From IMG/VR virus record IMGVR_UViG_3300013772_000034, positions 1 through 24,361 of that record: a stretch of 24,361 nt of DNA, one strand, 5' to 3'. Below are positions 6,953-24,361 of the stretch, in pieces. A model generated the notes under the pieces. That model made no database searches. It was given only the letters and a program-made list of their open reading frames with translations, and had not been told where the DNA came from. Made by a program: the position numbers and the translations under genes. This DNA is from a virus. How positions within the stretch are numbered: the stretch's first letter is position 1; the number at the start of each line of letters is the position of its first letter.

Positions 6953-7242
6953 TGGCAGGCGAAATCATCGACACCATCGCCCTGCTCGTCCTCGCCGCGG
7001 CGCTCGCGGGTCTCGGGTACTTCCACTGGCGCGAAGCGCAAGCCTGGCGCACCGAGCGGGCGGACCTGCTCAACCGGCTGATGGCCCGCACCTACCAAGA
7101 GTTCGTCTACTCGACACCGCCTGACACGACCGTGGCGACTCCGCCGCCGCCCGACATATCAGACCAGGCCTGGCATGAGAAGAACCGCGACGCGCACCCG
7201 GATCAGTACCCCGACGGTCTGCTCGGGGGCGATGACACCTAA
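6952..7242 (+). CDS. small single-TM membrane protein
   Basis: ATG at 6952 overlaps the preceding stop as TAATG; an in-frame ATG at 6940 is an alternative. The 96 aa product has one N-terminal transmembrane helix (IIDTIALLVLAAALAGLGYF, residues 5-24). A charged helical stretch (HWREAQAWRTERADLLNRLM) follows, then a Pro-rich acidic tail. The charge on either side suggests an N-out/C-in orientation, but this is not firm. Small one-TM proteins in phages include holins and membrane-tethered morons; the long soluble tail is not typical of a holin. It joins the portal gene by another TAATG overlap. Confidence 0.7.
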   Translation: MAGEIIDTIALLVLAAALAGLGYFHWREAQAWRTERADLLNRLMARTYQEFVYSTPPDTTVATPPPPDISDQAWHEKNRDAHPDQYPDGLLGGDDT

Positions 7243-9413
7243 TGGCACTCGCTCAGGGCATCGGGAACACGATCAAGGGATGGATGGCCGGCATTGGTGA
7301 GGATGGCAATACCGACGCGCGCGACAAGGCCGCGCTGCGCGACGACTCCAAGACGACCGCTGACCTCGACATCAAGTACAAGAAGGCCCGCGACGACCGT
7401 CGCCAGTACGAGTCCGAATGGCAGACCAACCTCGCCTTCCTGAAGGGCTACCAGTGGGTCAAGTGGTCGGAGCAGCGGCAGGCGCTGTTCCTGCCGCCAA
7501 GCCCGCCGTGGCGCGTTCGGCTGACGACGAACCTCATCCAGCCGATCTACCGGACCATCCTCGGCAAGATCACCAAGGAGGTCTCGCAGAACAAGGTCCA
7601 GCCGGCGAACGAGACCACCGAGGCCGAAGAGGACGCGCGCGCCCAGGACGAGCTGCTCGACTACTTGCGCGACAAGAACAACTCCATCAACCGCTCGGAA
7701 GAGGCGCTCAAGTGGGCGATCATCACCGGGACCGGACTCCAGTACGTCTGCTGGGACAAGTCGCTCGGCGACGAGCTGACCAACCCGGACACGCAGCAGG
7801 TCGACGACGGGCAGGGTGGCCAGATCGAACAGCCCCACCCGCAGGCCGGCCAGCCAGTCCACGAGCCGAACGCCGACGGCGAGGATGACGGGACCGGCAA
7901 CGTCGTCCACATGGGCGAGATCGACCACATCACGGTCTCGCCGTTCGAGTTCTTCCCCGAGCCGTTGGCCGAGACGACCGAGGACATGGAGTGGTGCTTC
8001 TACGTCAAGGTCCGGCCGTCGTCGTACATCAAGCGCAAGTTCGGCGTGGACATCGAGGACGAAACGATCGCGGCCGACGACTTCCTCCAGTTCACCTCGA
8101 CCGGTGACCAGGCCCGCTCGAGTTCGCAGACCAAGGGCGTGCTCGTCAAGGCGTATACGGAGCGGCCGAACACCGAGAACCCTGAGGGCCGCTACGTCGT
8201 CTACTCCAAGAGTCAGGTCTTCTACAACGGGCCGAACCCCTACCCGAAGGTCCCGATCCCGTTCTTCGAGTGCAAAGAGGGCATCGTCCCCGGACGGTTC
8301 TGGGGCCGCTCGGTCGTCTCCGACCTTGTCCCGGTCCAGCAGGCCTTCAACAAGACCCGCTCGCAGATGATGGAGATCCAGAACTCCACCGCCCGCCCGA
8401 AGTGGGCCGTGGTCAAGAACGCACTCGACGTCGGCAAGACCATCACCACCGCCCCGGCCGAGGTCATCGTCTACAACCCGGTCCCCGGCGCGTTCGAGCT
8501 CGGCAGGCCGTCGAAGATCGCTGGCGGCGATATCCCGGTCGGGATGTTCCAGCAGCTCGAACGGTTCCAGGCCGAGTTCTACGAGATCGCCGGTATCCAC
8601 GACTTCTCGCACGGTCTCTCCGGTCTCGGAGGGGTGCGGGCGGGCTTCGCGCTCCAGATGCTGCTCGAGGAGGACGCCACCCGGACCGGCATCCTCAAGC
8701 GGGCGTTCGATGAGTCGTGTATCAAGACCGATCGGGCCAAGCTCCGACTGGCGAAGCAGTTCTACATCGAGCCGCGCACGGTCACGATCGTCGGGGCCGA
8801 CTCATCGGCCGAGGTCAAGCAGTTCTACGGCGACAAGATCCCTGATGACGTGCAGGTCCGGATCGTCGCCGCCGGCGCGCTGCCGAACTCGATGGCCGCC
8901 AAGCAGCAGCTCATCATGGAACTCTTCTCAGAGAAGCTCATCCCCGACCCCCACCTCGCGCTGAAGCTCATGGGCATGGGCAACGTCGAGGGCGTCTACG
9001 ACGACGTGAACCGCGACACCCGCCAGGCCCAGCGTGAGAACGAGCTCCTGCGGACCGGCGTTCAGGTCCAGGCCCACGACTACGACAACCACCTCGTCCA
9101 CGGCCAGGAGCACGACAACGACCGCAAGGGCGAGCAGTACGAGCAGCTTGCCGCGCAGAACCCGGCCATCGCCGCGGTCTACGACCAGCACATGGCCGAG
9201 CACCGCGCGCTCATCCAGGCCGCGATGGGCCAGCCGCAGGCACCCGCGCCGGTCTCGCCGATCAAGGACCGCAACATCACGCAGCCCGCGTCGGTCGAAC
9301 CGATCAGCCTCCCGGTCAAGACCGACCTCCAGACGCCGACGACGGTGCCAGCCGCGACCACCCAGCAGGGCAACCAACAGGCCGGCGCGGACGCGCTGCT
9401 CAGCCTGCGCTAG
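7242..9413 (+). CDS. portal protein, P22-like size
   Basis: ATG at 7242 overlaps the previous stop as TAATG. The 723 aa product matches the large portal class of podoviruses (P22 portal is about 725 residues). Features include an N-terminal helical region with RRQYESEWQTNLAFLKGYQW and a loaded clip/stem region with PFFECKEGIVPGRFWGRSVV, SDLVPVQQAFNKTRSQMMEI and NSTARPKWAVVKNAL. A GLSGLGGVRAGFALQMLLEE segment lies in the C-terminal half. Gln/Ala-rich helices near 580-650 could form a barrel-like extension. The portal is the dodecameric ring at the vertex through which DNA enters and leaves. The N-terminal acidic insert (DGQGGQIEQPHPQAGQP) is loop-like. Confidence 0.92.
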   Translation: MALAQGIGNTIKGWMAGIGEDGNTDARDKAALRDDSKTTADLDIKYKKARDDRRQYESEWQTNLAFLKGYQWVKWSEQRQALFLPPSPPWRVRLTTNLIQPIYRTILGKITKEVSQNKVQPANETTEAEEDARAQDELLDYLRDKNNSINRSEEALKWAIITGTGLQYVCWDKSLGDELTNPDTQQVDDGQGGQIEQPHPQAGQPVHEPNADGEDDGTGNVVHMGEIDHITVSPFEFFPEPLAETTEDMEWCFYVKVRPSSYIKRKFGVDIEDETIAADDFLQFTSTGDQARSSSQTKGVLVKAYTERPNTENPEGRYVVYSKSQVFYNGPNPYPKVPIPFFECKEGIVPGRFWGRSVVSDLVPVQQAFNKTRSQMMEIQNSTARPKWAVVKNALDVGKTITTAPAEVIVYNPVPGAFELGRPSKIAGGDIPVGMFQQLERFQAEFYEIAGIHDFSHGLSGLGGVRAGFALQMLLEEDATRTGILKRAFDESCIKTDRAKLRLAKQFYIEPRTVTIVGADSSAEVKQFYGDKIPDDVQVRIVAAGALPNSMAAKQQLIMELFSEKLIPDPHLALKLMGMGNVEGVYDDVNRDTRQAQRENELLRTGVQVQAHDYDNHLVHGQEHDNDRKGEQYEQLAAQNPAIAAVYDQHMAEHRALIQAAMGQPQAPAPVSPIKDRNITQPASVEPISLPVKTDLQTPTTVPAATTQQGNQQAGADALLSLR

Positions 9414-11290: not shown

Positions 11291-12496
11291 ATGGCATCCG
11301 ATGTCACCACCTACGACGCGGCCCTCAAAGAGGTCTACGCGTCGATCCCCAGCGACGAGCTCAACAACGCAACTCCGCTCTACGACCGCATCAAGCGGGT
11401 CAAGCGCCCGCTGACCGACGGTCGGGAGTTCGTCTACGCGCTCCACGGTCGGCGTAACCAGCAGGTCGGCGCACAGCCGCTCGCTGGCGCCGTCGTTCCG
11501 ACTGCTGCCAACCAGGCACAGGAGGGCTACGACAACGCGAAGTACAAGCCGACACAGATGGTCGGCGCGATCAAGATCGAGCACTCCCTGATGGAACTCT
11601 CTCGTACCAACGAGGGCTCGTTCGTCCGGGCGCTTCGGTCAGAGGTCGAGGCGATGGCCGAGAACTTCGCGGTTGACTTCAACCGCCAGCTCTTCGGTGA
11701 TGGCACCGGCGCACTCAGCGTCTGTGGCGTCACGGCCGCATCCACGAGCGTCGTCCTTGCCGCGAACGGCACGGCCCCCCTCGAGGTCGGCATGGGCGTC
11801 GACGTCATCGTGACGGCCGATGGCACCACCAGCACTGGCGCCGTCGGGCGCTACGTCTCCTCGATCACCAACACGACTACGTTCGTCATCTCCGGTGCGG
11901 CGATCACCACGGACGCGACGTTCTCCGTGTACCGCGCCGGCTCACGGACCAACGAGGTCAACGGTCTCCAGATCATCGTCAAGGCATCCGGCGCACTCGG
12001 CGGGATCAACCCGTCAACGGCCGGTATCGAATACTGGGCTGCCGCTACGGTCGACAGCACCACCACCGTCCCCACCGAGGTCGCGCTCCAGAAGGTCTAC
12101 GAGGCCCCGCAGGAGCAGAAGCGCGGTGGCGGCGGCAAGCCGAACTTGCTCATCGGTTCCTTCGGCGCTCGCCGGAGCTACCAGGGCCAGCTCGTCGCGA
12201 TCAAGCGCATCACCCAGAGCGTCATGCGGATGGTCGGTGGCTTCGAGGCCCTCGACTACAACGGTCTGCCGTTCTACGCGGACCGTCTCTGCACCGCCAA
12301 GACCATCTACATGCTCGACACCGCACGTCTCGCGTTCCTCCAGACCCGCGACTCGCACTGGGTCGAGGACGACGGCCACATTTTGAAATGGGTTTCGGAT
12401 ACCCTCGCCTTCAAGGGCGTCTACGACTGGATCGTCCAGCTCGCGACTGACGCTCGCAACGCGCATTCGAGTCTTACCAACATCACGGAATCGTAA
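11291..12496 (+). CDS. major capsid protein (HK97 fold)
   Basis: The 401 aa protein follows the scaffold gene. ATG at 11291 lies in a weak AAAGAG context. The N-terminal arm is followed by DGREFVYALHGRRNQQVGAQ and a long helix, SFVRALRSEVEAMAENFAVD, like the HK97 spine helix. Residues about 143-216 form a Thr/Val/Ala-rich beta insertion (STSVVLAANGTAPLEVGMGV, STGAVGRYVSSITNTTTFVI). The C-terminal P/A-type region includes NLLIGSFGARRSYQGQLVAI and NGLPFYADRLCTAKTIYMLD. Assignment rests on position, size and fold pattern. It is expected to form the icosahedral shell. No delta-domain cleavage site is evident, in line with a separate scaffold. Confidence 0.88.
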   Translation: MASDVTTYDAALKEVYASIPSDELNNATPLYDRIKRVKRPLTDGREFVYALHGRRNQQVGAQPLAGAVVPTAANQAQEGYDNAKYKPTQMVGAIKIEHSLMELSRTNEGSFVRALRSEVEAMAENFAVDFNRQLFGDGTGALSVCGVTAASTSVVLAANGTAPLEVGMGVDVIVTADGTTSTGAVGRYVSSITNTTTFVISGAAITTDATFSVYRAGSRTNEVNGLQIIVKASGALGGINPSTAGIEYWAAATVDSTTTVPTEVALQKVYEAPQEQKRGGGGKPNLLIGSFGARRSYQGQLVAIKRITQSVMRMVGGFEALDYNGLPFYADRLCTAKTIYMLDTARLAFLQTRDSHWVEDDGHILKWVSDTLAFKGVYDWIVQLATDARNAHSSLTNITES

Positions 12497-14339: not shown

Positions 14340-15821
14340 GTGGCCGAGGGTTTCATTGAGGTTGCCGCCGACTCCACAGGGAAGAAGGTCCGCACCGAGG
14401 AACTGACCGTCGGCGCGAACACCGTCGAGCAGCAGGTCATCAGCCTGGCGACTTCGACCGGCACGCTCCTCGACGATCCGTCGCGGTCCTCGGTCACCCA
14501 GCCGATATCAGTTGCGTCGCTCCCGCTCCCCGCCGGGGCCGCGACCGAAGCCGGTCACCTTGCGGCCATCGACACCTCGACCGCGCGCATCCCGGCACAG
14601 GGCCAGGCCCTCGCCGCGGCTTCGGTGCCCGTCGTCCTCACCGCTGCACAGCAGACCGCTCTCACGCCCCCCGCGGCCATCACTGGCTTTGCTCTCGAAG
14701 CGGGTCATCTCGCGGCGATTGACACCGCGACAGCAGCCATCAAGACCGATGTCGATAAGATTCCGGCTCAAGGTCAGGCGCTAGCCGCGGCCTCAATGCC
14801 GGTCGTGCTCACCGCCGCGCAGCAGACCGCGCTTACTCCACCCGCAGCCATCGCCGGGTTCGCTCTCGAAGCCGGGCACCTTGCCTCGCTGGACACGAAG
14901 GCTCCTGCGCTCGGTCAGGCGCTTGCGGCGGCATCGGTCCCAGTCATCCTTCCCGCGGCCACAGTCACGACCCTCACGCCCCCAGCCGCGATCACCGGGT
15001 TCGCTCTCGACTCGACCGTGGCGAAGGACGGCGCCGACATCACCACGCCGTCGCCCGCGATGCCCGCCGGCGGTGTCGGCATTCGCGGCTGGCTCTCGGC
15101 GATCTGGACGAAACTCAACGGCACCATCGCCGTTACGGGCACGTTCTGGCAGGCCGTTCAGCCCGTCTCAGGCACCTTCTGGCAGGCGACGCAGCCGGTG
15201 TCAGGTACGTTCTTCCAGGCCACTCAGCCGGTGAGCGGCACCGTCGCGGTCTCAGCCCTCCCCGCTACGCCAGCAGGCACGAACGTCATCGGCCATGTCA
15301 TCGCGGATACAGGCAGCACGACCGCCGTGACGAGCCTCCCGGCGATCACGAAGGGCACGCAGGGCACGACGGGAGTCTCGGTCCAGGACCTCAAGGACAG
15401 CGGACGAACGAGCATTCTCCTGTTCCTCGATGCAGTGACGGGGATAACGACCGAAGCACTGGCCACCATGTCGATCAACAAGGGCGGTGTGGCCCAGACG
15501 GCAGCCACCTCCTACACGGTTACCGCGGGCAAGACACTCCGCATCTCCGGGATGCACACCTCGGTCAAGAACACCAGCACCGTTGCGTCGGACAGCCGCA
15601 CTAGGTTGCGACAGGCCGCGTCGAGCTTCTCGGTCTCATCCCCAATCGTTCTTTTGAACGAGGCCGGCTCGGTGGCCGCAATTGCCAATGCGGTCGGCAC
15701 GGATGACACGAGCATCCCCGACGGTCTGGAGATAGCCGGGGGTCAGATCATCGGCATCTCCCACATAGAGTCAGCCACCACCTGCACGGTATCGGTCGTG
15801 ATTACCGGCTACGAGTACTAG
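14340..15821 (+). CDS. repeat-rich fibre-like virion protein
   Basis: GTG at 14340 follows the previous stop with no gap. The 493 aa product has a short N-terminal beta domain. Three imperfect repeats of 47-57 residues lie at about 69-224 (unit EAGHLAAIDT...IPAQGQALAA...QQTALTPPAAITGF). Three 11-residue repeats, GTFWQATQPVS, lie at 267-299. A C-terminal beta-domain (about 340-493) with VQDLKDSGRTSILLFLDAVT and AATSYTVTAGKTLRISGM follows. The GTFWQATQPVSG unit recurs in phage fibre and head-fibre proteins, so a trimeric fibre or spike stalk is the best guess. The C-terminal domain could be the receptor or attachment head. Whether it sits on head or tail is unknown. Confidence 0.75.
   Translation: MAEGFIEVAADSTGKKVRTEELTVGANTVEQQVISLATSTGTLLDDPSRSSVTQPISVASLPLPAGAATEAGHLAAIDTSTARIPAQGQALAAASVPVVLTAAQQTALTPPAAITGFALEAGHLAAIDTATAAIKTDVDKIPAQGQALAAASMPVVLTAAQQTALTPPAAIAGFALEAGHLASLDTKAPALGQALAAASVPVILPAATVTTLTPPAAITGFALDSTVAKDGADITTPSPAMPAGGVGIRGWLSAIWTKLNGTIAVTGTFWQAVQPVSGTFWQATQPVSGTFFQATQPVSGTVAVSALPATPAGTNVIGHVIADTGSTTAVTSLPAITKGTQGTTGVSVQDLKDSGRTSILLFLDAVTGITTEALATMSINKGGVAQTAATSYTVTAGKTLRISGMHTSVKNTSTVASDSRTRLRQAASSFSVSSPIVLLNEAGSVAAIANAVGTDDTSIPDGLEIAGGQIIGISHIESATTCTVSVVITGYEY
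14544..15008 (+). repeat. three imperfect coding repeats (47-57 codons)
   Basis: Protein repeats EAGHLAAIDT with QGQALAAAS(V/M)PV and LTPPAAITGFAL start at about residues 69, 119 and 176 of the fibre protein. The second is longer by an insert (ATAAIKTDVDK). Third-position differences show that the copies have diverged, so the duplication is not recent. Confidence 0.75.
15138..15236 (+). repeat. three 33-base repeats encoding GTFWQATQPVS
   Basis: Three successive 11-residue units at residues 267-299 read GTFWQAVQPVS, GTFWQATQPVS and GTFFQATQPVS, then GTVAV. The strict 33-base period and the Trp/Phe change suggest a tandem duplication in a stalk segment. Confidence 0.8.
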
Positions 15822-16734: not shown

Positions 16735-18660
16735 ATGCCAGTCGCGGTTCCGGTGCGTTCGCCGTTCGGGAAGAAGGCCGCAAAAAAGCTCATTGACTTC
16801 AGTGGCGGCCTGAACAACAAGTTCTCGCCGCTCCTGATCGACGACAAAGAGCTGCAAGACATCCAGAATTTCAACTACGACGAGAAGGGCGCGCTCACCA
16901 AGCGCAAGGGCTTCCTCGCGCACTACGCCGCGACGTTCAACTCCAGCCCTGCTCGTGATTCGTACAACTACCGCAAGCAGGACGGCACCTCCCGACTCGT
17001 GCTCGCCGCGAGCGACAAGCTCTACGCGGATAACCCGCAGTTCGTCCGGCTCTATGACGTCGAGGCCGACTGGGAGACCGTCGGGGTCCAGACATCGAAC
17101 GTCTCGACAAGCACCGTCTCGGGCGACATCGTCCTGAACCAGCAGGGTCCGCTCGGCCTGTTCCTGCTCGGGACGCTCTCCGCACTGCTCGGCGGTCCGG
17201 TGGGTGCATCCCGCAGCGGGACGTGGCAGAGCGAGGCGATCAACATCTCGGCGGTTTCGAACCAGACCTCGGGTGTCGTGGCGATCAGCCAGACCCTGCC
17301 AGCGAGCACGACGATCACGGTCAAGACTCGGACCTCGGCTGATGGCTCGACCGGCTGGAGTGCGTACGCCGCGCTTGGCGCCTCGAACACCATCGTCTCG
17401 CCGGCCAACAGCTACCTCCAGGTCCAGGTCACGATGACCAGCACGGTCCCGGCCAGTCCATCGGTCCAGTCGCTCCAGGTGACGTTCGACACCACTGCGA
17501 CCGTCACCCAGATCGCGTCTGGAAAGTCCACCCTGGCCCGCTACCTCTTCGCCACCCAGAACGACATCCTCTACATCTTCAACGGGGCCGACGCGAACAT
17601 GAAGTGGGACGGAACCACGTTTGGCACGCAGGGCGGCACCCCACCGACCGCGAAGTACGTCCAGGTCCACAAGAACATCATGTTTCTCGCCGGGAACTCG
17701 ACCAATCCGTCGCGGCTCTACTTCTCCGACATCGCGCTCCCCGAGTCCTGGCCGGCCCTGAACTTCATCGACGTGGGCAAGGGCGACGGGGACCAGATCA
17801 CCGGCCTCGCGATCCTGCTCGACCGTCTGGTCATCACCAAGAACAACTCGGTTTGGCTGCTCGAGGGTGACGCCGCCAGCAACTTCATCCTCCGCCGCAC
17901 GACCAACATCGCCGGCTGTGTTGACCAGCACTCGATCGTGACGGTGAAGAACACCCTCGGGATGCTCGCTCGCGATGGGTTCTACTTCTTCGACGGCGTG
18001 AACATGGTCCTTGCGTCCGAGAAGATCTACTCGACCTTCAACGCGCTCAACAGCTCGCAGTTCGGACTCGTCGCCGCAATCTACGATCCGACGATCCGTA
18101 AGGTCTTCGTCTCGGTCCCGAGCGCGGCGATGACGAGCAACGATACCGTCCTCGTGTACGACGAGCTTCGGGTCGCCTGGACGATCTACAAGGGGATCAA
18201 CGCCGCGTCGTGGGTGATCTGGAGACAGTTCAACACCGACCACCTGCTGTTCGGGGACGCGAGCGTGGGCCAGCTGTACGACGCCGAGACCGGGTACAGC
18301 GACAACGGCGCCGCGATCGCGGGCTACATCGTCACGAAGGAAATGGACCTCGGCGGCACCGAACTCGCGAAGAATGTGATGGAAGTTTTCCTGGATGCGA
18401 AGGAGAAGAGCGGGACCGGCGACACCACCGCAAACCTCTCCTTCTTCAAGGACCTCAGTACGACCGAATCGTCCACCATTTCAGTCACGGTGACGCAGGC
18501 AACTGCCAGCGCAAGTCGCGTATCCCCGTCTGCCGTCGGTGCCGGTCAGGTCCGTTCTATCGCGGTGAAGGTCGCGCACTCCAGCGCGACGGCCTCGATC
18601 ACGATTTACGGGGTTACCACCGAGTACGTCCCGCTCGCCGGGTTGCGGCAGACGACCTAA
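16735..18660 (+). CDS. tail nozzle/stabilisation protein with embedded beta-sandwich
   Basis: ATG at 16735 follows the adaptor stop directly. The 641 aa protein begins with the nozzle signature DFSGGLNNKFSPLLIDDKEL and NFNYDEKGALTKRKGF. Residues about 139-156 are a hydrophobic, Gly-rich segment (LGLFLLGTLSALLGGPVG). Residues 157-255 form a beta-sandwich (TWQSEAINISAVSNQ, TITVKTRTSADGSTGWSAYA, YLQVQVTMTSTVPASPSVQS) like carbohydrate-binding inserts of tail proteins. The rest is propeller-like: ITKNNSVWLLEGDAASNFIL, TLGMLARDGFYFFDGVNMVL, YDPTIRKVFVSVPSAAMTSN. It probably plugs the portal channel and forms the tail stub, as in P22 gp10 or T7 gp12. The exact class is uncertain. Confidence 0.75.
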   Translation: MPVAVPVRSPFGKKAAKKLIDFSGGLNNKFSPLLIDDKELQDIQNFNYDEKGALTKRKGFLAHYAATFNSSPARDSYNYRKQDGTSRLVLAASDKLYADNPQFVRLYDVEADWETVGVQTSNVSTSTVSGDIVLNQQGPLGLFLLGTLSALLGGPVGASRSGTWQSEAINISAVSNQTSGVVAISQTLPASTTITVKTRTSADGSTGWSAYAALGASNTIVSPANSYLQVQVTMTSTVPASPSVQSLQVTFDTTATVTQIASGKSTLARYLFATQNDILYIFNGADANMKWDGTTFGTQGGTPPTAKYVQVHKNIMFLAGNSTNPSRLYFSDIALPESWPALNFIDVGKGDGDQITGLAILLDRLVITKNNSVWLLEGDAASNFILRRTTNIAGCVDQHSIVTVKNTLGMLARDGFYFFDGVNMVLASEKIYSTFNALNSSQFGLVAAIYDPTIRKVFVSVPSAAMTSNDTVLVYDELRVAWTIYKGINAASWVIWRQFNTDHLLFGDASVGQLYDAETGYSDNGAAIAGYIVTKEMDLGGTELAKNVMEVFLDAKEKSGTGDTTANLSFFKDLSTTESSTISVTVTQATASASRVSPSAVGAGQVRSIAVKVAHSSATASITIYGVTTEYVPLAGLRQTT

Positions 18661-19563: not shown

Positions 19564-21369
19564 ATGGCTAATTTTGGAGACCCCACCGCTGGCATCAGCG
19601 ACCCCGATGCACTCAACGCGGCGCGAATGGCCGCGATGCAGCGGGCGCTCGGCGGTGGCGTCGCTGGCCCGACGGGACCGCTCGGCCCGGGCGACACGCC
19701 CGCGACTTCCTATCCATCTGCGGCATTCCTCGGGGGTCAGCAGATGGGTGGGGTGGGGGCTGTCAACAAGTTCGGCGGCAACCCGATGCCTGGCGTTGAC
19801 CCGGCGAACAACGACTACGGGTTTCCCTCTACCGCGCCGGTCCCGCAGGCCGCCAACGCGAACACAGGACCGGCCGGGGTGCAGGGCGATCTCGGTCCAC
19901 AGGGACCGAACCCTATCGACGCGACCAACGCGATGAACCGCGCGGCAGCCGACGCGCAGCGCCAGGGCTCGCTCGGTACGGGCGCCGCGCCCGCTGCGCC
20001 CCCGCCCCCCGCTGGCGTCACCATCCTCACGCCCCAGCAGGCCGCAGCGGGAGGCTCGCTCGCCGGTGGCGGCGGTGGCGGCGCGCCGGCCGCGGCAACT
20101 ACCGGCGGCTCGCTCGGTCCCGCACTGACCCCGAAGGCGGCCCCCGCTGGCGTCACGATCCCGACGCCGAATGCGGTCGCTGCCGCGAAGGCCGCCGCGC
20201 CCGCCGCCGGTCCAGGTGCGCCGAACCCGGCAGCCGCCGGTCCAGGTGCGCCGCCGCCCCCCGCCGGCACCGCGAACCAGGCGGGCGCAGGGACCGGAAA
20301 CCTCTCGGACCTGACGAACTCGATCATGTCCCAGCTTCAGCAGGTCCAGTCGGGACTCGGGAGCACCGGCCAGTCCGCGGACGTGAGTGCGGTCTACCTC
20401 CGGCAGTCGCAGTCGATCCTCGACATGCTGAACCAGGAGGAAGCGACCCTCCGCGCCGACGCCCAGAAGAACGGCACGACCGTCGACCCGGCGACGCAGT
20501 TCACGATCAGCAAGCTCCAGGAGACCCTTGACGCGAACATCAAGACCACCAAGGAGAACCTGAACTCCCGCGGGCTGTACGACTCGGGCATCGAGCTCCA
20601 GTTGGAGAACAACCTCCAGAAGGGCTCGGCCTCCGACCAGGCGATGGTCCTCAACGACCGTCTGACGAAGCTCCAAGACCAGCTCCAGGCCGGACTCACG
20701 AACATCGGCAACCAGCGCGTGTCCACCGCCAGCCAGTTCGGGCTCGCGGGTGCGAACGCCCAGAGCACCGCAAACGCGGCATCGACGCTCGCTGACCAGA
20801 CGCGGCAGGAGAATGCCGTCCGGGACATGCTCTCCCTCCGCGGACAGCAGAGCCAAGAGCAGAGCGCCGCGGCCTCCCTTGCCCAACAGAATTCGGAGTT
20901 CGGGCTGTCACAAGCCCAGCAAGCGTCCCAGTTCGGCGCGTCACAAGCGCAGACGGTTGCCCAGGCCCAAGCCCAGCGAGACTTCGAGGGTGCCCAGGCG
21001 GCGCTCGCCCGCGCCGCGACCGCCGCGAACCAGCAGGCTGCCGAGCAGGCTGCTGCGAACCTCGCCGCGGCGAACCGGGCCGCTGCCAGCGCTCGGGTCA
21101 CCGCTCCGGTCCCCGCCCAGATCAACAACCCGTTCGGCGGCACGACCAAGACACCGGGCGTAGACGCAGCGTTGACCAACCAGGCCATCGCAGCGGTGCA
21201 GGGCGCTCAGGACCGCACCGCGGCGCTCAACTCCCTGGCGACGAACCAGGCCGCCCTCGCGGCTCGGGGCGTGGACATCCAGGCCGTCCAGGACGCCATC
21301 GACGCGCAATTCCCCGAGAGTCAGGCCTCCATCGCTGGCAACCGTCGGGTCGGCGGACCTCAGACCTAG
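19564..21369 (+). CDS. internal virion/ejection-type protein, Gln/Ala-rich
   Basis: ATG at 19564 has GAGGAG (19551-19556) seven bases upstream. The 601 aa product starts with a DALNAARMAAMQRALGGG helix. A long Pro/Gly/Ala low-complexity part to about residue 245 follows, with two AGVTI(L/P)TP repeats and two AAGPGAP repeats. A helical coiled-coil section of about 300 residues, rich in Gln and Ala, comes next (NLSDLTNSIMSQLQQVQSGL, QAAEQAAANLAAANRAAASA). It includes ENLNSRGLYDSGIELQLENN, a turn seen in phage internal proteins. The layout and position before a giant ORF fit an ejection protein of podoviruses. It is very rich in CAG codons. Function inferred, not proven. Confidence 0.72.
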   Translation: MANFGDPTAGISDPDALNAARMAAMQRALGGGVAGPTGPLGPGDTPATSYPSAAFLGGQQMGGVGAVNKFGGNPMPGVDPANNDYGFPSTAPVPQAANANTGPAGVQGDLGPQGPNPIDATNAMNRAAADAQRQGSLGTGAAPAAPPPPAGVTILTPQQAAAGGSLAGGGGGGAPAAATTGGSLGPALTPKAAPAGVTIPTPNAVAAAKAAAPAAGPGAPNPAAAGPGAPPPPAGTANQAGAGTGNLSDLTNSIMSQLQQVQSGLGSTGQSADVSAVYLRQSQSILDMLNQEEATLRADAQKNGTTVDPATQFTISKLQETLDANIKTTKENLNSRGLYDSGIELQLENNLQKGSASDQAMVLNDRLTKLQDQLQAGLTNIGNQRVSTASQFGLAGANAQSTANAASTLADQTRQENAVRDMLSLRGQQSQEQSAAASLAQQNSEFGLSQAQQASQFGASQAQTVAQAQAQRDFEGAQAALARAATAANQQAAEQAAANLAAANRAAASARVTAPVPAQINNPFGGTTKTPGVDAALTNQAIAAVQGAQDRTAALNSLATNQAALAARGVDIQAVQDAIDAQFPESQASIAGNRRVGGPQT

Positions 21370-24361
21370 ATGAGCCTCGATCCGTTTGGGGACCTACTGA
21401 AGCAGCCGTACAACGGCAGCGGCGTCGACTCGCAGAACGTCTTTGGCGACATGGCGTCCGGCGGTCCGCTGAACGACCGGACGGCCTCCGACGCGTGGCG
21501 CTCCCAGCCCGCCACGACCATGCCGGTCTCGCAGGCGACCGGGGATTCCGTCGCCCCGCCGCCCGACCCAGGCTTCTTCGGCAACATCGGGAACGCGGTC
21601 GGGAACTGGCTCAAGCCTCAGCCCCCGCCGCCGGACCAGACCAACACGAGTGGCGGTCTGTTCGGCATGGGCAACCTCAGGATCGGGGGCAGCCTCGGTG
21701 CGGGTCTCGCATCGGGGCTACGGGACTTCGCGAGCAGCAGCGTCCAGCCCATCGTCAACATCGCCCGCGACCCGCTCGCGTATCTCCGTGGCGACCCACA
21801 GACCCCGTACGTCTACAAGCCGAGCGGGATGGCCCCGTACCAAGAAGGGCCGCAGGCGCAGAACGCGATGGGCCTGTTCGGGCTTGTCGGTGCGGGCGCG
21901 CTCCCGTACGGCGCTCCTGAAGCCGCGCTCTCCCGTGGCTCTCTCGGCGCTGATGCCGCGCGCCCGATCGACATGGGCTCGCTCGGCCACGTCGCCCCCG
22001 ATGTCGTTCCCGGCTCGATAGGGGACCTCGGGCGGGTAGCACATCCCGAAGGTGCTCCAGTCCAGAACCCGACCGCCGGGACGCTTCGTACACGGCTGGA
22101 CCTGGCCCCACCCGAGCCGCCAGTCCCAACCGCGCTGTGGAACGACCAGTTCCTGAACCCGACGCCGGAGAACCCCTACCCGGCATCCGGCGAGCCGGTC
22201 CGCGCCGCACCCGACGCCATCCAGATCCCGGCCAACACCCGCACCACCGGCCTGGCGCCCATCGAGGCTGGGCCAGGACCGGCCCCGCTCACGGACACCG
22301 GCACCCTCATCCCCGGTCGTCCGGACTCGTTCGCGGACCTCGCACGTCGCGCGAACGTCCCCGAGGGCCAGCCGCTCTTCAACCCCGGTGAGCGGCCGAT
22401 GGGCGTGGAGCCGTCGCCGATCACCGACCTCAGTGCCGCCGCCGCTGCGCAGCCGAGCGCCGCCGCGAACGAAGCCCTCGCAACCGCCCGAGGAGCAGCG
22501 TTCGAGCCGGGCACGGGTGCCGCAATCCGTCCCTCGCTCATTGGCGCGAATGAACTTCGGCCGTCAACAATCGGTGCCTCTGAGGTCGCGCCCGATCTCT
22601 ACAAGAAATACCTGACGACCACGCCAAACTCTGGGTACGACATCTTTACCGGGCAGTTTGGCCGCTTCGGCCAGCAGGCGCGGATTCGTGTCGTGGATGA
22701 CGTCCCTGGACCGCCGGGCACCATCGCATCTACGCAGAACCTCTCTCAGGGTCCAGTCATCCTGATCCGCAGTGACCTATTGCCGGGGCAGTTCACTACT
22801 GCGATCACGCACGAACTGGAACACGCAGGGCAGCGAGGAATGGACGTTGCTTCTGCGGAGCGTGCGGCGTATGCGACTCACGGAGAAACCCCTGGACCAA
22901 TAGCGCGTGCGGCGATGCCGACCCTCCCCGAGCGTCCCGCCGGTGGCCTCACGGCCCGTGGGGTAGAAACCGCCCCTATCACGCGGGCCGACCTCTCGGT
23001 CAAGAACCCGACCATCCCGACTGGGGCGCAGGCCGAACCGCTCACCGCCGCCGACCTCCGCGCGCGAATCGGCGCCCCGTCCGTGCAGACGCCACTCGCC
23101 CCCGCCGGACCGCTCGGCCAGGAGATGCTTGCGAATGAGCACCCGATCATCCAGGCCGCCGCGCGGGGCGAGTCGTGGGTCACGCCGGAGTTGCTGACCA
23201 CGCACTTCGCCAATGTTGACCTCGTCAATGCGCTGAAGGGGACCGGCGGCGATGTCGGTGCGGCCATCGACAAGCTCGAGGCACTGGGCGCGAAAGCATC
23301 GAGCACCGCAAGCCACCTGCGCGCCGAAGGGGTGAACATCCCGAAGGTGCCCGGTCGGCCGATGAGCACGATGACCTACGCGGACCTGCGTACGCGCTTG
23401 GGCACGACCGCGCCTGCCGGCAACGTCCTGTCGCTCCACGACCAGCTCGCCGCATCGCTCCGCGCGGGCGGTCGGGCTGACCAAATCATTCCGCAAGAAG
23501 CAACTGGAGGAACCAATGGCACTCCTACGACACCTGCGACGCTTCCTGGTGGAGGACGAGGGCTCCTCAATCGACTGGGCAACGCCGTTCGCAAGGCGAA
23601 TGCTGACGAAGTTGGCTCGGGTCGGCTAGACCTCGGACTGACTGGGGCGGACAAGCCGCTTCCACCGCGCCGCGCGGACACGATGAGTGACGCGATTGCG
23701 ATGAGTTCGCCAGATGGGAAGATGTCGGCGTCTGCCCGCGCTTCTGCCAAAGCACGTCTGAGCGAAGCCCTCTTCGGACCGGGTGGACTCCAGCGGCCAG
23801 GACTCCCCGCGCAGCCGACTGAGGCTGCGAGTCTCCTGCAACAGGCGCAAGAACTCCGCGACTTGGCCGCTCGTGGCATGAAGCCGCAGGCGTATGTGAA
23901 GCAGGCCACCGCACTTGAGGCACGCGCAGCGCAACTGTCAGGCTTCCTCAAGGACGACATTGGTGGTGGCCGGCTGCCGTTCGACAAGAACACTCGCTAC
24001 GGCACTCCGGCAGAAGTAGCAGCAGCCAACGACCCACGACTCGCCGCTATCGGTCAGGCCCCGAAGACCACCGACCTCGCCACGCAGCAGGCCAAGCAGG
24101 CACTGGCGGACCGGATGGGCACCGACACGAATGGGCGCGCGCTCAGTGGGGGTCAGTACGTCCCACCGCCCACGACCCCTGGTGGACGCGGTCCGATCAC
24201 GATGGCCAGTCTCGCGCGGGGTGTGGAGAACGCGACCGGCATCGGCAAGACCCTCTCGACGGCCGCGTCACCGTTCCACTTCATGTTCCGCCACGCGCTC
24301 CCCGCGATCGCCCACCCGCAGGCGTGGCTCAAGGGCAGCGTCAAGGGCCTGAGTGAAGGGC
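21370..24361 (+). CDS. giant internal protein with zinc-protease motif, no stop in window (partial)
   Basis: ATG at 21370 follows the previous stop directly. The frame stays open to the window edge, at least 997 codons. Residues 1-430 are disordered and Pro/Gly/Ala-rich. A globular section from about 415 includes LIRSDLLPGQFTTAITHELE and H481-E-L-E-H485, with E497 (ASAERAAYATHG) as a possible third ligand. This is the layout of gluzincin-type metallopeptidases. A long helical, low-complexity region follows (AAIDKLEALGAKASSTASHL, SARASAKARLSEALFG). The visible end (GKTLSTAASPFHFMFRHALP, AIAHPQAWLKGSVKGLSEG) resembles the LPD38-type domain of large polyvalent phage proteins. It may be ejected into the host and act as a protease. 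The true C-terminus is missing. Confidence 0.85.
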   Translation, partial: MSLDPFGDLLKQPYNGSGVDSQNVFGDMASGGPLNDRTASDAWRSQPATTMPVSQATGDSVAPPPDPGFFGNIGNAVGNWLKPQPPPPDQTNTSGGLFGMGNLRIGGSLGAGLASGLRDFASSSVQPIVNIARDPLAYLRGDPQTPYVYKPSGMAPYQEGPQAQNAMGLFGLVGAGALPYGAPEAALSRGSLGADAARPIDMGSLGHVAPDVVPGSIGDLGRVAHPEGAPVQNPTAGTLRTRLDLAPPEPPVPTALWNDQFLNPTPENPYPASGEPVRAAPDAIQIPANTRTTGLAPIEAGPGPAPLTDTGTLIPGRPDSFADLARRANVPEGQPLFNPGERPMGVEPSPITDLSAAAAAQPSAAANEALATARGAAFEPGTGAAIRPSLIGANELRPSTIGASEVAPDLYKKYLTTTPNSGYDIFTGQFGRFGQQARIRVVDDVPGPPGTIASTQNLSQGPVILIRSDLLPGQFTTAITHELEHAGQRGMDVASAERAAYATHGETPGPIARAAMPTLPERPAGGLTARGVETAPITRADLSVKNPTIPTGAQAEPLTAADLRARIGAPSVQTPLAPAGPLGQEMLANEHPIIQAAARGESWVTPELLTTHFANVDLVNALKGTGGDVGAAIDKLEALGAKASSTASHLRAEGVNIPKVPGRPMSTMTYADLRTRLGTTAPAGNVLSLHDQLAASLRAGGRADQIIPQEATGGTNGTPTTPATLPGGGRGLLNRLGNAVRKANADEVGSGRLDLGLTGADKPLPPRRADTMSDAIAMSSPDGKMSASARASAKARLSEALFGPGGLQRPGLPAQPTEAASLLQQAQELRDLAARGMKPQAYVKQATALEARAAQLSGFLKDDIGGGRLPFDKNTRYGTPAEVAAANDPRLAAIGQAPKTTDLATQQAKQALADRMGTDTNGRALSGGQYVPPPTTPGGRGPITMASLARGVENATGIGKTLSTAASPFHFMFRHALPAIAHPQAWLKGSVKGLSEG

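Follow-up and report, generated by a model that had tools for sequence, protein, structure and literature searches.

Our analysis points to a compact zincin-like domain, organized around the motif HELEH and, according to structural modelling, probably located at residues about 430-510 of a giant protein encoded among the late genes of a tailed phage. The complete picture, in which this predicted domain belongs to the giant protein of a phage with a P22-type portal and serves self-processing, is a tentative one, to which we would give somewhat less than even credence. The stretch of DNA analysed here, referred to as the window, comprises bases 1-24361 of a 35745-base IMG/VR virus record, and its main features are collected in Table 1.

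Table 1. Features of the window on which the argument draws, in order of position
Feature	Position	Strand	Basis or remark
Portal protein	7242..9413	+	Pfam P22_portal 1.1e-22; phrog_156 3.8e-45
Major capsid protein	11291..12496	+	phrog_14242 3e-58; phage capsid matches
Stabilization-type virion structural protein, upstream of the giant ORF	16735..18660	+	phrog_3287 1.7e-29; phage matches
Giant ORF (P0001)	21370..24361	+	at least 997 codons, still open at the window end
Low-GC3 segment holding the motif, residues 368-513	22471..22908	+	two-state segmentation, GC3 0.63
Candidate compact zincin-like domain, residues about 430-510	22657..22899	+	predicted structure
HELEH, residues 481-485	22810..22824	+	sequence; putative ligands H481 and H485, putative general base E482
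Glu497 (in SAERAAY), putative third zinc ligand	22858..22860	+	sequence; second predicted helix, pLDDT about 59
Second, stronger low-GC3 segment, residues 701-895	23470..24054	+	GC3 0.59

Pfam and PHROG searches placed the terminase, the P22-type portal, the major capsid protein and the stabilization-type structural protein in a single run of genes. The capsid protein matches, at 26-29% identity, those of Arthrobacter, Microbacterium and Cellulosimicrobium phages and of Manatee Spring phages. Together, the gene run and the capsid matches indicate that the source is a tailed phage whose structural genes resemble those of podoviruses. Directly before the giant ORF lies an Ala/Gly/Gln-rich protein of 601 residues (19564-21369), with local GC of up to 0.81, for which a family search gave no match. 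Within another ORF (14340-15821), a 33-base tandem repeat of 2.9 copies (15138-15233) would encode 11-residue protein repeats.

The giant protein is large, is encoded beside late virion genes and follows the stabilization-type protein, as expected of a polyvalent protein. Pfam, PHROGs and NCBIfam recognise no domain in it, and hence no second enzymatic domain, the gene being interrupted by a gap. This gap, a run of 10 N at contig 24362-24371, starts at the first base past the window end and most likely represents a missing piece of unspecified length. Past the gap, three codons and a stop are followed by a further ORF, P0002 (contig 24387-25490). In Manatee Spring phage MW202497, whose giant has 1582 residues, residues 944-1138 of that protein match P0002 (E 6.7e-7). 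A 1004-residue open frame in locus L192 does so too (E 2.8e-11), and the end of P0001 (residues 804-914) matches this frame as well, in the correct order and very weakly (E 0.0065, two sequences searched). Because the counterparts of P0001 and P0002 share one frame in MW202497, and weakly so in L192, this phage may make the two as a single protein. Judging from these alignments, the giant ORF probably extends past its listed stop. Elsewhere in the giant protein, residues 601-645 (about 23170-23304) surround LVNALKGTGGDVGAAIDKLEALGAK, a stretch that we take to resemble a UBA or EF-Ts-type helical motif; a Pfam search of the entire giant protein gave no match there.

HELEH has the HExxH form of zincin metallopeptidases. 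A sequence-only reading that preceded this work had pointed to this motif at residues 481-485 and to a candidate glutamate, Glu497 in SAERAAY, and both are indeed present, with the glutamate 12 residues past the second histidine. Among the 18 plausible genes of the window (6199 aa) this is the sole HExxH, where composition leads one to expect 0.103, and only 0.005 within the giant protein; such rarity is suggestive, not decisive. The hydrophobic fraction of the region before the motif is 0.32, compared with 0.17-0.20 in the flanks. The pattern HELxHAxQ(8x)ExxA occurs at 56 loci in IMG/VR, mostly in short zincin-like ORFs, and thus the spacing between HELEH and the glutamate is in use among phages. 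A nearly identical motif, THELEHAIQ, is found at positions 2465-2491 of locus L191, inside a 601-residue ORF that by eye reads like a terminase; claims of a zincin from the motif alone therefore call for caution.

Structure prediction from the single sequence (residues 371-537) placed a single long helix over the motif, preceded by three strands, with a mean pLDDT of 40.5. For AlphaFold, the alignment (A8) consisted of 25 small phage zincins picked by HELxHAxQ(8x)ExxA from 44 distinct references. Supplied with these rows, AlphaFold predicted strands at 435-442, 450-453 and 463-467 and helices at 472-487 and 493-504, with HELEH on the first helix and Glu497 on the second. The pLDDT is about 70-80 in the core and about 59 in the Glu497 helix, and 44 residues fall between 70 and 90. 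The two-helix geometry that structure prediction was meant to reveal was thus recovered with motif-picked rows, but not from the single sequence, and because the rows were chosen by the motif, the test is partly circular and its outcome amounts to compatibility rather than proof. A motif-free profile was made from the N-terminal halves of 42 loci, six of the 56 (L022, L034, L048, L050, L063 and L068) and duplicates having been dropped; against its own shuffles (2001 given), the giant-protein region ranked 177th of the 1535 reported, which is not significant. The nearest solved and viral structures were, weakly, mostly zincins, including IrrE/PprI, a DPC-repair protease and minimal zincins, and phage SprT-like or IrrE-like proteins were also among the top matches; none of the matches in these structure searches reached E 0.001 or Z 8. 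A PDB profile search with A8 also touched botulinum light chains (E 0.012 or worse, ~22 residues around HELxHA), which we regard as only a shared motif, claiming no kinship.

Overall, we consider it likely that residues about 430-510 adopt a zincin fold. The opposite explanation, that HELEH arose by chance in an unrelated segment and that there is no zincin, would fit the roughly 0.1 HExxH expected over the genes read, the L191 ORF, in which the longer motif arises outside zincins, and the insignificant motif-free test. It sits poorly, however, with the strand-strand-strand-helix order predicted without an alignment, with the hydrophobic character of the region before the motif and with the enrichment of HExxH among giants of the same gene slot, described below. 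We hold chance to be an unlikely explanation.

Known families offered little purchase on the domain region, which has no match in Pfam, PHROG or NCBIfam. At E 10, the MPTase-PolyVal model (PF18818) had no match in 41 records, among them this contig, and the giants of MW202497, L164 and L177, in which HExxH is clearer, were also without a match to it. On this contig, the models of Peptidase_M78 (IrrE, PF06114), SprT-like (PF10263) and DUF6782 (PF20573) found nothing. Peptide and motif scans for relatives of the domain returned none that could be aligned, and a capsid scan gave no result. A scan with the portal protein as query collected 80 relatives, 41 of which were taken as whole records and combined with eight named phages. 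Among these 49 records no relative extends across the motif, the one match (G037, E 0.005) covering query positions 8-49 only. Two further candidates were set aside: gp72 of MaAM05 has a HExxH, but at E 2 is too weak to use, and the match in TribleTrouble runs opposite to its gene.

Since no sequence relatives of the domain were found, we compared the gene slot instead, with the stabilization-type protein as landmark. A giant gene follows this protein in ten named phages, and one of the ten giants has a HExxH (MW202497, HELGH at 436). Downstream of the portal, 36 stretches from portal relatives were read; an ORF of at least 700 residues is present in 26 and absent from 10. With the giant defined as the longest ORF and 700 aa as the minimum, the set numbers 37 (the 26 stretches, the ten named phages and the window), and HExxH occurs in five of the 37, as opposed to a shuffle mean of 0.61; four were reached in one of 500 shuffles and five in none, in a count that keeps near-duplicates (L158, L159 and L161, all 910 aa) and includes the window, itself chosen for its motif. 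By eye, L164 (HEHAH, 2380 residues) and L177 (HEVGH, 2652 residues) are zincin-like; the HELPH of L175 is not, so that one of the five is doubtful. L193, which has the P0002 block, shows no HExxH in its 710-residue frame, and this lack, shared with nine of the ten named slot giants, appears to count against our preferred reading.

LPD38, a domain known from polyvalent proteins, exceeded the cut-off in three of 50 records, each time inside the giant gene: L177 (G035), L005 (MW202692) and L012 (Bacillus phage Pony), all portal or structural relatives. The L177 giant has both LPD38 and HExxH. LPD38 was not found in this contig; its presence in the neighbouring P0002 was considered and dropped, as comparing profiles with the giants that bear LPD38 revealed no match. 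Taken together, the LPD38 and HExxH findings indicate that, as far as these sequences can tell, some relatives at least have polyvalent-type proteins in the slot and that a zincin is an occasional part of them. For one giant gene of this slot (L007 7077-11327, MW202554) the annotation reads 'large tegument protein UL36', apparently in error. The original proposal of a zincin in the giant protein of the window stands in part: the predicted order of elements fits and HExxH is enriched in the slot, but the confident part of the model depends on motif-picked rows, the motif-free test was insignificant, and Pfam, PHROG and NCBIfam offer no matching family.

The sequence-only reading had further described a shift toward A- or T-ending codons around the motif and had taken the zincin for a later insertion. 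The shift itself is confirmed, GC3 being 0.63 within residues 368-513 and 0.85-0.86 on both sides, with an amino-acid-adjusted codon z of -6.75 for residues 393-513. The low-GC3 block does fit the domain, but the block at 701-895, to which the sequence-only reading made no reference, is stronger (codon z of -8.89 for residues 681-890 of the giant ORF) and contains neither HExxH nor a recognised domain, so codon usage fails to single out the domain. A stretch in a different gene of the window reaches a codon z of -5.63. Because of the second low-GC3 segment, and because no alignable relative runs across the region to provide an empty site, we do not accept a domain insertion.

How might such a domain work? 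Residues about 430-510 would comprise three strands, the HELEH helix, a short loop and the Glu497 helix, forming one folded bead amid the Pro/Ala/Gly-rich stretches of the late-gene giant protein, most of which appears loosely structured. His481, His485 and Glu497 would coordinate zinc, with Glu482 as the residue that activates water. Given a zincin fold, the domain has a good chance of being catalytic. Its substrate would then most likely be the giant protein itself, in the same or an adjacent copy, and cleavage while virions assemble or once the protein has been ejected would release functional pieces. The motif, the place of the gene and the codon block are observed directly and the order of strands and helices is predicted, whereas everything from zinc binding and activity through packaging and ejection to self-processing is what we infer. 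By analogy, we favour self-processing first, a host target next and a non-catalytic role last, because the passages of PMC5512222 on such domains weight self-processing above host attack.

The idea that the same zincin is ejected with the DNA and acts on a host protein, put forward in the sequence-only reading, would suit the place of the giant gene among virion genes, which fits an ejected protein, and the PMC5512222 passages allow host attack for some MPTase domains. Nevertheless, packaging, ejection and target are all inferred in that scheme, and the same passages give self-processing the greater weight, so we deem it unlikely. It also seems rather improbable that a zincin-like fold has lost its cutting activity and persists in the virion protein for structure or binding. 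N4 vRNAP would be a precedent, since according to the PMC5512222 passages it is packaged uncut although its HExxH-domain region is required for encapsidation, and by analogy this counts against self-processing as well; yet here the complete HExxH and the downstream glutamate are intact. We regard it as very improbable that the giant virion protein of this phage group picked up, as a cassette, a minimal zincin outside all described families that enters the host cell and cuts a specific host protein as infection begins, with the various giants of the slot exchanging one effector for another.

Returning to the preferred reading, a self-processing zincin within the giant protein, its significance is best seen against known systems. 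In a literature search no listing named this contig; giant phage proteins that carry a zincin within them have been described before. In the PMC5512222 passages (2017), zincin MPTases are the commonest domain of phage polyvalent proteins, with a core of three strands, HExxH and a later glutamate. The roles proposed there are self-processing before or after packaging and, in some cases, an attack on proteins of the host. For P1 DdrB, cutting ahead of packaging is reported. The portion of PMC12633501 on the N4 vRNAP structure describes an HExxH subdomain. The novelty lies in the present example, from a phage group with unannotated giants, and possibly in a compact form without a family match. 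If our reading is true, the polyvalent-protein idea gains a phage group in which the giants carry next to no annotation, and E482 is the residue whose removal would distinguish self-processing from host attack, a choice left undecided in the PMC5512222 passages.

Like the polyvalent MPTases of those passages (the C-terminal region of N4 vRNAP, P1 DdrB), the present protein is a large late-gene product with an embedded HExxH and a later glutamate, and a three-strand core is predicted within the giant. Unlike them, it has neither an MPTase-PolyVal match nor a recognised second enzymatic domain, and the spacing to the glutamate is short. The MW202497 giant occupies the same gene slot and has its own HExxH, but no similarity is detectable around it. 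IrrE and SprT-like structures are among the nearest to the predicted domain, whereas the M78, SprT-like and DUF6782 models match nothing on this contig. The small stand-alone phage zincins (L013-L067, motif-picked) share its motif, its spacing and its predicted order of elements; in contrast to them, the candidate domain described here is embedded in a giant protein.
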